A stretch of 64,000 bases of DNA from Candidatus Nyctobacter psychrophilus (lineage in GTDB: Bacteria > Vulcanimicrobiota > Vulcanimicrobiia > Vulcanimicrobiales > Vulcanimicrobiaceae), in assembly GCA_014305025.1 (NCBI GenBank), contig JACRTY010000036.1, positions 62,001 through 126,000 on the forward strand, in the 5' to 3' direction. A model generated the notes under the pieces. The model searched no databases. It was not told the origin of the DNA and saw only the letters and a program-made list of their open reading frames with translations. This document shows positions 53,134 to 60,411 of this stretch, one piece after another (position 1 is the stretch's first letter; each line of letters opens with the position of its first letter). The position numbers and the translations under genes are program-made.

Positions 53134-53151
53134 TCACGCCTTACGGCGTGA
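53134..53151. terminator. Perfect hairpin between convergent genes
   Basis: TCACGCC-TTAC-GGCGTGA forms a 7-base-pair stem and overlaps the cbbX stop codon. It lies 4 bases after the end of the DUF4239 gene. No T-run follows on either side, so its role as a two-way terminator or mRNA 3' stabiliser is tentative. Confidence 0.4.
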
Positions 53152-54058
53152 TGTCGAAGACACGGCTCTTGCGCAGGTCGTCCACTTCGATTGCCATCAG
53201 TTGCGCGCGCGTGATCGTTCCGCCCCCCGCGAAGAGGCGCGTCGCGGCCCGTAAGCGCGCGCGGTCGAGCGCATTGCGAACGCTGCGCGCGTTGGCGAAG
53301 TTCGGTTGCTTCATGCGCCGCTCGACGTACTCCAGAAACGTCGCCTGCGCGTTCGTACCGAATTCGTAGTTGAGCCGGCGCAGCATGAGCTGCGCGATCG
53401 CCATCAGTTCGTCCGCCGTATAATCCGGAAAGTCGATGTGATGGGCGACCCGTGAACTCAAGCCGGGATTGCTCGTAAAGAAGCGTTCCATCGGCGCTTT
53501 GTAACCGGCGAAGATGACCACCACGTCGTCGCGCTGGTTCTCCATCACTTGCAGAAGTATCTCGATTGCCTCGGCGCCGTAGTCGCGCTCGTTTTCGGGG
53601 CGGTACAGATAGTACGCTTCGTCGACGAATAGGACGCCGCCGGTCGCTCGCTTGAGCATGTCTTTGGTTTTAGGCGCGGTGTGGCCGATGTACTGGCCGA
53701 CCAAGTCGTCGCGCGTGGCGACCACGACGTGTCCTTTACGCACGTAGCCGAGACGGTGCAGCAGCTGCGCCATGCGCATCGCGACGGTCGTTTTACCCGT
53801 ACCGGGGCGGCCGGTGAACGACATGTGGAGCGGCGGCTTTTCGGCGGCCAGTCCGGCTTGGCGGCGCAAAGTGTCGATCAGGAGCAGGTGCGCAATTTCG
53901 CGGATGCGTGTCTTGACCGGCCTCAGGCCGATCAGTTCATCATCGAGGTTTTTTAAAACGTCGTCGACGTGCGAGTCGCGATACGCCGCATCGAGGTCGA
54001 AGCGCAAGTCCCTCGTCGCGCTGGCGATCTCTGCGCTGGGTGCGGCTTCCGGCGGCAC
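53141..54058 (-). CDS. cbbX: RuBisCO activase CbbX (AAA+)
   Basis: The 305-residue protein has Walker A '[20 protein letters not shown]' (GRPGTGKT), Walker B '[13 protein letters not shown]', sensor-1 region 'VVVIFAGYK', the arginine finger region '[18 protein letters not shown]' and the C-terminal helical cap '[20 protein letters not shown]'. CbbX remodels inhibited red-type RuBisCO by pulling on the CbbL C-terminus. It is the last gene of cbbL-cbbS-cbbX; GTG 54058 lies 5 bases from the cbbS stop. A hairpin overlaps its own stop codon. Confidence 0.95.
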
Positions 54059-54063
54059 GCTTT

Positions 54064-54507
54064 TCAGTCGGCCGCCTTTGACACGCCGTTGCGGTAGCGT
54101 TCCCCGTGCGGCCGCTCCGCAGCGTATGAATGGAGCGTGTAAGCAATGCGGCGATCCGAACGTTCCTGGCGGTCAAGGTGGAAGCCCGGCTCATGCCCGG
54201 GACGTTGGACGATGAAGCTCAGTGCCGTCGTTTGCCGGCCCAGGCGCGCATCGTATGCATTGACCTTGACGTAATCGTTCGCGTGCTCTTCACGCGCACG
54301 CCGGACCTCCTGCATGATGGCGGCCGCGTCGCGCAGATCGAACATGGGCAGCCCGTGCATCTCCCAGTACGAATTCCGCGGGTGCGGATCGTCGGTGTAT
54401 TCGATGGAAATGGGCCAGCCGTTGTCGACTGCATACTGGATCTGCTTGACGATCTGCTCGTCGGTCAGCGGCGGTAAGTACGAGAACGTTCCTTGAGTGA
54501 GATGCAT
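54064..54507 (-). CDS. cbbS: RuBisCO small subunit, red type
   Basis: The 147-residue protein has '[20 protein letters not shown]', '[20 protein letters not shown]', '[15 protein letters not shown]' and 'ALSFIVQRP'. Together with the C-terminal extension ('[20 protein letters not shown]' and beyond), this is the red-type (forms IC/ID/IE) small subunit, in which the extension builds a beta-barrel in the holoenzyme. It sits between cbbL (10 bases) and cbbX (5 bases). Start ATG 54507 is preceded by GAGGA. Confidence 0.95.
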
Positions 54508-54517
54508 CTGGAGATCC

Positions 54518-56044
<1,527 letters not shown>

Positions 56045-56142: not shown

Positions 56143-56997
56143 TCACGCCGGAAGCGCGTCCTTCGCCATCACCGTCCAGTCGCTCGCGCCGTACCCGCGC
56201 TCGATCAATTCATCCATCTTGGCGGCAATCGCCGGCAGGGCGACGAGGTCGCTTCCGGCGCGCTGTGCCTCATCGAGCATCAAGCGGACGTCTTTGCGCG
56301 CCATCGTCAGTTCCCACGACGGATGGTCGAAGTCGCCTCCGATCAGTCGTGCCGCGCGCGCCGGTATGACCGCACCCGGATTGAAGAAGTCGAAGAGCGA
56401 GACCGCTTCGTGCGGCGCGAGGCCCAGTGCTTTCGCGAGGGCGAGAACATCGGTCAAGCCCGCGGTCACGAACGTCAAAAAGAGATTGCCCATCAGCTTG
56501 AAGGCGGCGGCACGATTGGGCTGCGCTCCGAGATAGAGCAGCTGGCCCGTCATCGGTTCCAACGCGGGGCGCAGCGCATCGAAGCGATCACGCGCACCGG
56601 AGGCGAGCATGGTTCCGCTCGACTCGAGCGCGTTCTGCGGCCCCATGAAAACCGGCGCATGCAGAAACGGGATGCCGCGCGCATCCCAGCGGGCGACGCG
56701 CTCTGCCGCCCCGCTCGCCGAGGTCGTCGTGTGGTCGACGATCGCGACGTCGCAGGCGAAGCCGGCGCGAGCGCGCTCGAGTACGTCGTCGACCGCGTCG
56801 TCATCGGAGAGCGTCAGGTGAATGCGTTTTGCACCGCAGGCGGCATCCGCGGGATCGGCGGCGACCTGCGCGCCGTCGGCTTGCAGCGACCGCGCCTTTT
56901 GCGGCGTGCGGTTCCACACGCGCACGTCCTCGCCGCGGCGGCGCAGGGCGCGCACGAATCCCGCTCCCAATAATCCGGTCCCGAACCAAGCGATCAC
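56143..56997 (-). CDS. 6-phosphogluconate dehydrogenase/HIBADH-like NAD(P) oxidoreductase
   Basis: The 284-residue protein has an N-terminal Rossmann loop 'AWFGTGLLGAGFVRALRRRG', 'VWNRTPQKA', the substrate-binding 'DHTTTSASGAAERVA' and the catalytic lysine motif 'FKLMGNLFL'. It belongs to the beta-hydroxyacid dehydrogenase family (glyoxylate reductase, 3-hydroxyisobutyrate dehydrogenase and relatives). Start GTG 56997 has GGGAG five bases upstream. It lies between cbbR and cbbL on the same strand. In a carbon-fixation locus, reduction of glyoxylate or tartronate semialdehyde from photorespiratory glycolate would make sense; this is inference. Confidence 0.8.
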   Translation of the reverse strand: MIAWFGTGLLGAGFVRALRRRGEDVRVWNRTPQKARSLQADGAQVAADPADAACGAKRIHLTLSDDDAVDDVLERARAGFACDVAIVDHTTTSASGAAERVARWDARGIPFLHAPVFMGPQNALESSGTMLASGARDRFDALRPALEPMTGQLLYLGAQPNRAAAFKLMGNLFLTFVTAGLTDVLALAKALGLAPHEAVSLFDFFNPGAVIPARAARLIGGDFDHPSWELTMARKDVRLMLDEAQRAGSDLVALPAIAAKMDELIERGYGASDWTVMAKDALPA

Positions 56998-57008: not shown

Positions 57009-57896
57009 TTAAGCATCCGTCGAGGTAAAATCGCCGGCGGTGCGCAGATAGTCAACGAACCGGGCTGCCGGCGACGACAATTCCCGCTCTGCGCTCGCGA
57101 CGAGGTGCCACGGTCGCGGCAACGGCGTCACGGGCGTCGCAATGATGTCGATCACCCCATCCGCCAGCTCGCGCGCGATCCCTTCGCGCGCGAGCAACGA
57201 GACGCCGAGGCCCACGCGGATGCACTCGCGGATCGCACCGTTCGAACCGATCGTGAGCCGTGGCGGATCGATGGCCAGCGCCGTGAAAAACTCTTCGGTC
57301 GTCGTTCGCGTTCCCGAACCCGATTCGCGCAGGAGCCACGTTTCGCGCGCGAGCGCCTCGATGTCGTGCGCGCCCGTGTGAGCGGGACCGACGACGACCA
57401 GTTCGTTCCCGCGAGTCGCCAACGTTTGAAAGGCGCGGCCGAGCGGCGGCCGTCCCGCAAGCACGAGTTCGACCTCCCAGTGCGCGAGAAAATCCCAGAC
57501 GCGACTGCGGTTGGCGACCTCGAGTTCGATCTCGCCGGTACCCTCGCGTTGCCCGAAGCCTTGGATCAGTTGGGGCAACAGATGCTCCGCCGCCGTGGTC
57601 ACGGCAGCCATCCGGACGCGTCCGGCGCGAGCGGTCTGGGCCGCCCGCGCTTCTTCCAGTCCTTCGGCGATGAGCGACAGGACGCGGCGCGCGTAGCGCT
57701 CGAGTGCTTTGCCCGATGCCGCCAGCCGCAAGGTGCGGCCGTCGCGCTCGAAGAGGGGGGCCCGAACCTCGCGCTGCAGCGTCGCGAGCGCCGAGGAGAC
57801 CGCCGGCTGTGAGACATTTTGACGCTCCGCCGCCGCCCGCACGGAGCCGGCATCGATGACGTCCAGGAAGGTCTGAAGCTGATGAAGCGAAGGCAT
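57009..57896 (-). CDS. cbbR: LysR-type regulator of the CBB cluster
   Basis: The 295-residue protein has the LysR winged helix ('LHQLQTFLDVIDAGSVRAAA', 'NVSQPAVSSALATLQREV') and a periplasmic-binding-like effector domain. CbbR proteins sense metabolites such as RuBP and activate cbb operons. Its gene lies between the two oppositely oriented cbb arms, which is the standard CbbR position. An ATAA-N4-TTAT dyad stands two bases upstream of its ATG, suggesting autoregulation and control of the divergent rpe-fba-prk arm. Confidence 0.88.
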   Translation of the reverse strand: MPSLHQLQTFLDVIDAGSVRAAAERQNVSQPAVSSALATLQREVRAPLFERDGRTLRLAASGKALERYARRVLSLIAEGLEEARAAQTARAGRVRMAAVTTAAEHLLPQLIQGFGQREGTGEIELEVANRSRVWDFLAHWEVELVLAGRPPLGRAFQTLATRGNELVVVGPAHTGAHDIEALARETWLLRESGSGTRTTTEEFFTALAIDPPRLTIGSNGAIRECIRVGLGVSLLAREGIARELADGVIDIIATPVTPLPRPWHLVASAERELSSPAARFVDYLRTAGDFTSTDA

Positions 57897-57898
57897 AA

Positions 57899-57960
57899 AT
57901 AATCGCTTATCATTCCGTGAGAAACTTGTATTTGACTTCTATTGGTTACGCTGCCATGAT
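57899..57960 (+). promoter_or_regulatory. Divergent cbbR/rpe control region
   Basis: ATAATCGCTTAT (57899-57910) is a dyad just upstream of cbbR. On the plus strand TTGACT (57932-57937), 17 bases, CATGAT (57955-57960) form a promoter for rpe-fba-prk, with the start point about 40 bases before the rpe ATG. The dyad lies where a LysR activator would bind (22 bases upstream of the -35 box). Confidence 0.55.
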
Positions 57961-58008: not shown

Positions 58009-58389
58009 ATGAGGAGCACCGTGGAGTTCGAAGCTGCGTCAACCGCGGTTACGTCGCGAACCACGGGCGTGTTCGCGTCGCTGTTGAGTGGCGATTTCGG
58101 GCGCCTGGCCGAGCAAGTCGGCGAACTGCTGCTCATGGGCGTCGATCCCGGATTCGGCGGCCAAGCGTTCATCGAAGCGGTCGCACCGAAGATTGGTGCC
58201 GCACGGCGGCTCATTACCGCGCACCACAGCCGCGCCAAGATTAACATCGACGGCGGCGTCAAGCCCGACAACGCGCGCCGGCTCGCCGATGCCGGGGCCG
58301 ATTACCTCGTCGTCGGCTCGGCCCTCTTCGGGGACGCCGGCATCTCCGCGTGCGCGGGCCGTTTGCGCGCCGCGCTGATGGGAGGCTGA
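58009..58389 (+). pseudogene. rpe: Ribulose-phosphate 3-epimerase with the middle deleted
   Basis: The 126-residue frame starts like Rpe ('ASLLSGDFGRLAEQV' corresponds to the usual 'SLLSADFarLgeQv') but then jumps directly to the C-terminal half: 'LLMGVDPGFGGQAFIEAV', 'INIDGGVKPDNARRLADAGA', 'LVVGSALFGDAG'. About 100 residues with strands 2-5 are missing. They would include the metal-binding His and Asp residues. The junction is in frame. The epimerase is needed to recycle xylulose phosphate in the CBB cycle. A second epimerase elsewhere, a fusion artefact or an assembly collapse are all possible. GGAGG near its end is the ribosome site of fba. Confidence 0.8.
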
Positions 58390-58392
58390 GTG

Positions 58393-59517
58393 ATGATCGA
58401 ACATGACACCACGCTTGCCGGCATCGCTCGCAGTTTGGTCGCGAGCGGTAAAGGCATTCTCGCGGTCGACGAAAGCACGGCAACGTGCAACAAGCGATTC
58501 GCAAAGCTTGGAATTGCCCAAACCGAAGAGATGCGGCGTTCGTATCGCGATTTGTTGTTGAGCGCCCCGGGCCTCGCTGGGTTTATCAGCGGTGCCATTC
58601 TCTACGATGAAACGCTTCGCCAGAGCACCGCCGACGGCACGCCGTTCGTCAGCGTAATGGAAAGCGCCGGAATGCTCCCCGGCATCAAAGTCGACACGGG
58701 AACGGTGCCGCTGACGGGTGGTTCCAGCGAGAAAATCACCGAAGGACTCGACGGGCTGCCCGCCCGCGTTGCCGAGTACCGCCGGCTCGGCGCGCGCTTT
58801 GCGAAATGGCGTGCCGTCGTCACGCTCGGCGACGGCCTGCCGACGCAGCAGTGTCTCGAAGCCAATGCGCACGCGCTCGCGCGGTACGCGCGCCTCTGTC
58901 AGGACGGCGGCCTCGTGCCGATCGTCGAGCCCGAGGTGCTCATGGACGGCGCGCACTTGCTCGCGGAGTGCGAGCGCGTGACCGAAGAGACGTTGCAGCG
59001 GGTCTTCGCGGCGCTGCGGTTGTACGGCGTTGCCCTCGATGCGATGATCCTGAAGCCCTCGATGGTGATTGCAGGGACCGACGCAGCGGCGCAGGCGGAC
59101 GGGGACGAGGTCGCGCGTGCAACCGTTGCGTGCCTGCGGCGAACCGTTCCGGCAGCGGTCGCCGGGATCGCGTTCCTTTCGGGCGGTCAAGGCGACGTCC
59201 GTGCCACCGAGCACCTCGACGCGATGAATCGTCTGCCGGTCGCCAAGCCGTGGCCGCTGACCTTTTCGTACGGTCGCGCGCTACAGGAGCCGGCGCTCGA
59301 ACATTGGTGCGGCGCGACAGACCATGTCGCCGAGGCGCAGCGCCGACTCGTCCAGCGCGCGCGTTGCAACGCGGCAGCTGCCTGCGGGGCATACACGCCC
59401 GCGATGGAGACCGAGGCGGTCATCGACGCGACGTACCGCGACGCCTTCGAGCCGCCGGCGGAGGCGGCGTTCGAGACGCCGCTCTTCAACGAGCGCTCGC
59501 TGTTTCGCGCGGTCTGA
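58393..59517 (+). CDS. fba: Class I fructose-bisphosphate aldolase
   Basis: The 374-residue protein is of the eukaryotic/plant-type class I family: 'GKGILAVDESTATCNKRF', 'GARFAKWRAVV' (K139), 'VPIVEPEVLMDG' (E180) and the Schiff-base lysine 'DAMILKPSMV' (K221). 'GIAFLSGGQGDVRATEHL' (in two parts) forms the phosphate site. It makes fructose 1,6-bisphosphate (and possibly sedoheptulose 1,7-bisphosphate) in the CBB cycle. ATG 58393 has GGAGG seven bases upstream. It follows the truncated rpe by 3 bases and precedes prk by 18. Confidence 0.95.
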   Translation: MIEHDTTLAGIARSLVASGKGILAVDESTATCNKRFAKLGIAQTEEMRRSYRDLLLSAPGLAGFISGAILYDETLRQSTADGTPFVSVMESAGMLPGIKVDTGTVPLTGGSSEKITEGLDGLPARVAEYRRLGARFAKWRAVVTLGDGLPTQQCLEANAHALARYARLCQDGGLVPIVEPEVLMDGAHLLAECERVTEETLQRVFAALRLYGVALDAMILKPSMVIAGTDAAAQADGDEVARATVACLRRTVPAAVAGIAFLSGGQGDVRATEHLDAMNRLPVAKPWPLTFSYGRALQEPALEHWCGATDHVAEAQRRLVQRARCNAAAACGAYTPAMETEAVIDATYRDAFEPPAEAAFETPLFNERSLFRAV

Positions 59518-59535: not shown

Positions 59536-60411
59536 GTGTCGGTAAAGTACCCGATCATTGCGATCACCGGCTCGTCGGGCGCGGGCACGACGACCGTGCG
59601 AGCGACGTTCGCGCAGATCTTCCGGCGCGAGGCCATTACTGCGGCCATCGTCGAGGGCGACGCCTATCATCGGTACGATCGCGCCGAGATGCGCGCGATG
59701 ATGAAAAAAGCGCAAGAGGCGGGTTTCGACGCCTTCAGCCACTTCGGCCCGGACGCCAATCTGTTCGAAGAACTCGAAACGCTCTTTCGCGTATACGGCG
59801 AGACGGGCGGCGGCACGGTTCGTAAGTATCTTCACGATGAGGAGGAGGCCGCGCCGTATTCCCAAGCACCCGGCACGTTCACGCCGTGGGAACCGATCGC
59901 TCCCGACACGGCGCTCCTCTTTTACGAGGGGCTGCACGGAGCCGTGGCCGCCGAAAACGTCGACGTCGGGCAATACGTCGATCTCTGCATCGGCGTCGTG
60001 CCGACGATCAACCTCGAGTGGATCCAAAAACTGCGCCGCGATAAAGCCGATCGCGGTCATTCGCACGAAGCGATCGTGGAGACGATTCTGCGCCGGATGC
60101 CCGACTATGTGAACTACATCTGCCCGCAGTTTTCTCGAACGCACGTCAATTTCCAGCGCGTGCCGATCGTTGACACCTCCAACCCGTTCATCGCCCGCAC
60201 CATTCCGACGCTGGACGAAAGCATGCTCGTCATCCGTTTCCGCAACGCCAAGGGCATCGATTTCCCCTATCTGCTGGCGATGCTGCACGACTCCTTGATG
60301 CCGCGTCCCAACACGATCGTCTGTCCGGGCGGCAAGATGGATCTCGCCATGCAATTGATCTTCACGCCGATGATCCTGCAGTTGATGGACCGCAAGAAGC
60401 GAGGCCTGTGA
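59536..60411 (+). CDS. prk: Phosphoribulokinase
   Basis: The 291-residue protein has the P-loop 'GSSGAGTTTV' (12-21), 'VEGDAYHRYDRAEM', 'FGPDANLFEELETLFRVYG', 'LFYEGLHGAV' and 'WIQKLRRDKADRGHS' with the catalytic and RuBP-binding basic residues. It is the short bacterial (proteobacterial-type) class. It phosphorylates ribulose 5-phosphate to RuBP, the substrate of CbbL. GTG 59536 is the start. The stop lies beside the convergent tolC-like gene. Confidence 0.95.
   Translation: MSVKYPIIAITGSSGAGTTTVRATFAQIFRREAITAAIVEGDAYHRYDRAEMRAMMKKAQEAGFDAFSHFGPDANLFEELETLFRVYGETGGGTVRKYLHDEEEAAPYSQAPGTFTPWEPIAPDTALLFYEGLHGAVAAENVDVGQYVDLCIGVVPTINLEWIQKLRRDKADRGHSHEAIVETILRRMPDYVNYICPQFSRTHVNFQRVPIVDTSNPFIARTIPTLDESMLVIRFRNAKGIDFPYLLAMLHDSLMPRPNTIVCPGGKMDLAMQLIFTPMILQLMDRKKRGL

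Follow-up and report, generated by a model that had tools for sequence, protein, structure and literature searches.

We consider it probable (about 78%) that the first gene of the Calvin cycle (cbb) operon of Candidatus Nyctobacter psychrophilus is what remains of a second rpe (cbbE), a cbb-linked paralogue that lost 111 codons by an in-frame deletion and whose function can be covered by a housekeeping Rpe. The gene, here called rpe', lies in the 64,000-nucleotide stretch of DNA that was analysed (the window) as an open frame of 126 codons. It heads the operon rpe'-fba-prkB on the plus strand, which diverges from cbbR, a gene for a NAD-binding protein and cbbLSX on the minus strand (Table 1). 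The probable CbbR is 47-57% identical to the cbbL-adjacent regulator of three relatives (G006, G014 and G028), and the NAD-binding gene matched no counterpart in the cbb loci of relatives that were searched. Form IE RuBisCO has been reported in members of Candidatus Eremiobacterota (PMC9758169, PMC9561532).

Table 1. Features of the cbb locus, in positions of the window.
Feature	Position	Strand	Basis
RuBisCO activase (cbbX)	53141-54058	-	TIGR02880
RuBisCO small subunit (cbbS)	54187-54507 (matched stretch; frame continues to 54064)	-	PF00101
RuBisCO large subunit (cbbL)	54518-55984	-	catalytic motifs present
6PGDH/HIBADH-like NAD-binding protein, flanked by cbbR and cbbL	56143-56997	-	PF03446
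LysR-type regulator, probably CbbR	57009-57896	-	PF00126/PF03466
Match to a sigma-70-like promoter (TTGACT-17-CATGAT) in the gap from cbbR to rpe'	57932-57960	+	consensus match only; 1 found against 0.2 expected in shuffles
rpe' remnant, Rpe beta1-alpha1 joined in frame to beta6-alpha8, 126 aa	58009-58389	+	ORF, profile and codon comparison
Deletion join, GAA CTG (Glu-Leu), at both ends of the segment absent relative to G002	58120-58131	+	codon comparison
3' end of rpe', with a GGGAGG run resembling a Shine-Dalgarno sequence and the TGA stop immediately before the fba start codon (GTG 58390 / ATG 58393)	58379-58395	+	sequence
Class I fructose-bisphosphate aldolase (fba)	58390-59517	+	PF00274, NF033379
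Phosphoribulokinase (prkB/cbbP)	59536-60411	+	NF011997

A preliminary description had proposed an rpe without its middle, with the N-terminus joined in frame to the C-terminal half, and this is borne out by a profile search and by alignment to the intact Rpe encoded in the cbb locus of a relative, G002. Residues 32-107 match only positions 123-198 of the 198 in PF00834 (E 1.1e-22), a score above the domain cut-off (80.9 versus 21.1), whereas the TIGR01163 score of 84.9 bits is well short of the equivalog cut-off of 212.6, and the product does not qualify as a whole Rpe protein. Rpe begins with a stretch corresponding to residues 21-38 (VFASLLSGDFGRLAEQVG), and its end corresponds to residues 39-123. 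Aligned with G002 the remnant reads VFASLLSGDFGRLAEQVG-EL-LLMGVDPGFGGQ, where the first part resembles G002 residues 5-22 and the second G002 residues 136 onwards. In a codon-by-codon comparison the join maps to the codons for Glu-Leu (58123-58128), inside the range suspected beforehand (58080-58140), with 333 bp absent. The presence of a Glu-Leu pair at both deletion ends suggests a deletion between short repeats (microhomology), one where helix 1 ends and one where strand 6 begins; this microhomology is judged against G002 and not against the ancestral sequence of the host's own gene. A deletion leaves the frame intact by chance in one case out of three.

The retained N-terminal stretch is short, as previously described, but it comprises about 18-20 family residues instead of 15, and the position of the start codon is uncertain. 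If translation begins at ATG 58009, about 20 further residues without family match precede this stretch, and they show low model confidence and a codon-position composition that differs from the neighbouring genes. A start at GTG 58069 would coincide with the N-terminus of the family, without an evident ribosome-binding site.

Compared with the Rpe/CbbE family (PF00834, TIGR01163), rpe' retains strand 1 and helix 1, strands 6-8, both phosphate loops (GFGGQ at 48-52 and the GSALF of VGSALF at 103-107) and an operon position as for cbbE. Unlike the family, it has no strands 2-5, so that the eight-stranded barrel is incomplete, and the HVDVMDG and VHLM motifs are lost with them. Known Rpe structures assign metal binding and proton transfer to the H and D of HVDVMDG and the H of VHLM. 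The earlier claim that the strands holding the metal ligands are deleted holds for these three of the four ligands but not for the remaining one, Asp 81 in NIDGG, which is kept; one of the two catalytic aspartates is gone. The roles given here to the lost motifs and to the kept ones (GFGGQ, NIDGG and VGSALF) follow established knowledge of Rpe structures. Half a TIM barrel with a single metal ligand and a single catalytic aspartate should be inactive as an epimerase.

The suggestion that the epimerase is supplied elsewhere was supported by the search for a second gene. A full-length housekeeping rpe is present on another contig of the same genome (G000:C16:76723-77316, E 1.3e-77). It is the only full-length rpe of the genome, it groups in the tree with the housekeeping lineage of the phylum, and its product shares 68% identity with a Candidatus Eremiobacterota Rpe and at most 53% with those retrieved from other phyla, so the host probably belongs to Candidatus Eremiobacterota. 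This enzyme belongs to the same family as the remnant; unlike it, it is full length, lacks cbb linkage and stems from a different lineage, sharing about 41% identity with the remnant. Among 149 genomes of the phylum, an intact cbb-linked second rpe was found only in G002 (L033:276-959, minus strand), where rpe and fba are arranged beside cbbL as in the locus of the remnant. The two genes are orthologues with about 59% identity over the common C-terminal half, but the G002 protein has its full length of 228 aa, and its gene diverges directly from cbbL without an intervening cbbR. Another eight relatives whose CbbL is close (G006, G007, G008, G014, G015, G028, G042 and G044) carry a single housekeeping rpe. 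In the cbb loci read for seven of the eight, a permissive search for rpe gave only chance-level matches, and in G014, which has the closest CbbL (90%), neither the surroundings of cbbL nor the stretch read around fba contain an rpe. As most CO2-fixing relatives likewise have the housekeeping gene only, the cbb-linked rpe appears to be a dispensable paralogue in these RuBisCO-bearing bacteria, seen intact, halved or absent. In this sense, an intact orthologue in G002 and a full-length rpe that could cover the function point to ordinary gene loss of a spare copy and not to a new kind of protein. The housekeeping Rpe would then be shared by the Calvin cycle and the pentose-phosphate pathway.

Some other matches were recorded along the way. 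A second partial rpe match (G108:C15:20366-20659) was rejected as a true half-Rpe, being cut by a contig end in a bin whose listed contamination is 7%. Also in the 149-genome search, the rpe match of G144 (C93:18487-19070) is split into two pieces, which suggests a frameshift, and that of G147 (C451) lies at a contig start. The cbbL of G028 (L083:700-2068) matches as two overlapping pieces, suggesting a frameshift or a sequencing error.

Apart from the deletion, no decay is visible in rpe', and no relative with the same deletion was found for comparison among the 149 genomes. The C-terminal halves from the window and G002 cluster with 100/98 support apart from all housekeeping Rpe, and the terminal branch is 0.31 for the remnant versus 1.27 for G002, a coarse result from 84 columns. 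On a profile of other Rpe, the C-terminal half scores 90.8 bits in the remnant and 80.8 in the intact G002 protein, and the lower quartile of the other Rpe is 107.4. Since the remnant stands above G002 but below most Rpe, these scores point to a divergent cbb-linked lineage and not decay of the remnant. Pairwise dN (0.35) and dS (1.8) are comparable with the values for neighbouring genes, but this divergence may for the most part be older than the deletion and so does not prove current constraint. The absence of decay fits a recent loss and also fits a retained function.

A possible explanation for the intact frame is found at its 3' end. The rpe' stop codon (58387-58389) directly precedes fba, and the GGGAGG run lies within the last rpe' codons and is likely the ribosome-binding site of fba. 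In G002, rpe and fba overlap as ATGA. From this arrangement, translational coupling of rpe' and fba is likely, and it may be the simplest reason why an in-frame loss would be better tolerated than a frameshift, because an open frame ending at the start and ribosome-binding site of fba would avoid polarity on fba and prkB. Without further decay, either the deletion is recent or the frame was kept because rpe' ends immediately before fba; probably both contribute. The genome also encodes a second class I aldolase homologue (G000:C51:61484-62512), 59% identical to the operon fba.

An assembly or strain artefact, in which the true gene (or that of most of the population) is full length and 333 bp were dropped or chimerised, is unlikely, yet it is the most serious rival of the paralogue remnant. 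The genome has a draft appearance (58 contigs), the remainder of the rpe' frame is undamaged, and the deletion form was found in no second genome, either among the 149 of the phylum or in the best 80 loci of a GTDB scan. Against this, the deletion is located within a 148-kb contig and not at its edge, and an apparent homology of about 6 nt at the join (judged against G002) is too short to mislead an assembler. When the missing middle was sought across the assembly, the sole match was the housekeeping gene. That the short protein remains an active epimerase is hardly credible: it keeps the phosphate loops and a single catalytic Asp but lacks strands 2-5 together with the H and D of HVDVMDG and the H of VHLM.

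We regard as improbable a half-barrel with a new role, for example that of a cbb-operon partner with a sugar-phosphate-binding or regulatory task, an option raised in the preliminary description for which we found no positive evidence, though the remnant is not visibly decaying. Its open frame, its phosphate-binding loops with one Asp and the lack of accelerated change would suit such a role. An AlphaFold2 model (mean pLDDT 71.7), well predicted in its C-terminal part, has four putative barrel strands (22-25, 39-43, 77-81 and 99-101), and its query-normalised TM against solved Rpe reaches 0.72. However, residues 1-20 and 27-29 fall below a pLDDT of 50, and full-length Rpe rows guided the prediction, which is no proof that the fragment folds alone. 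The same half-Rpe was seen nowhere else in the genomes and GTDB loci mentioned above, a literature search for half-barrel Rpe found nothing, one for cbbE pseudogenes returned nothing evidently relevant in titles and abstracts, and a recent loss accounts for the same facts. Slightly less probable still is the more specific proposal that strands 1, 6, 7 and 8, contiguous around the ring, form a natural half-barrel expressed with the Calvin cycle genes and kept as a sugar-phosphate-binding or regulatory protein; if expressed and folded, it would be a naturally occurring parallel to the half-barrels obtained by engineering. As a paralogue remnant, rpe' would instead illustrate how a cbb-linked epimerase can disappear from an operon while the pathway continues with a housekeeping enzyme that it shares, which is useful to bear in mind when pathway completeness is judged from operons.
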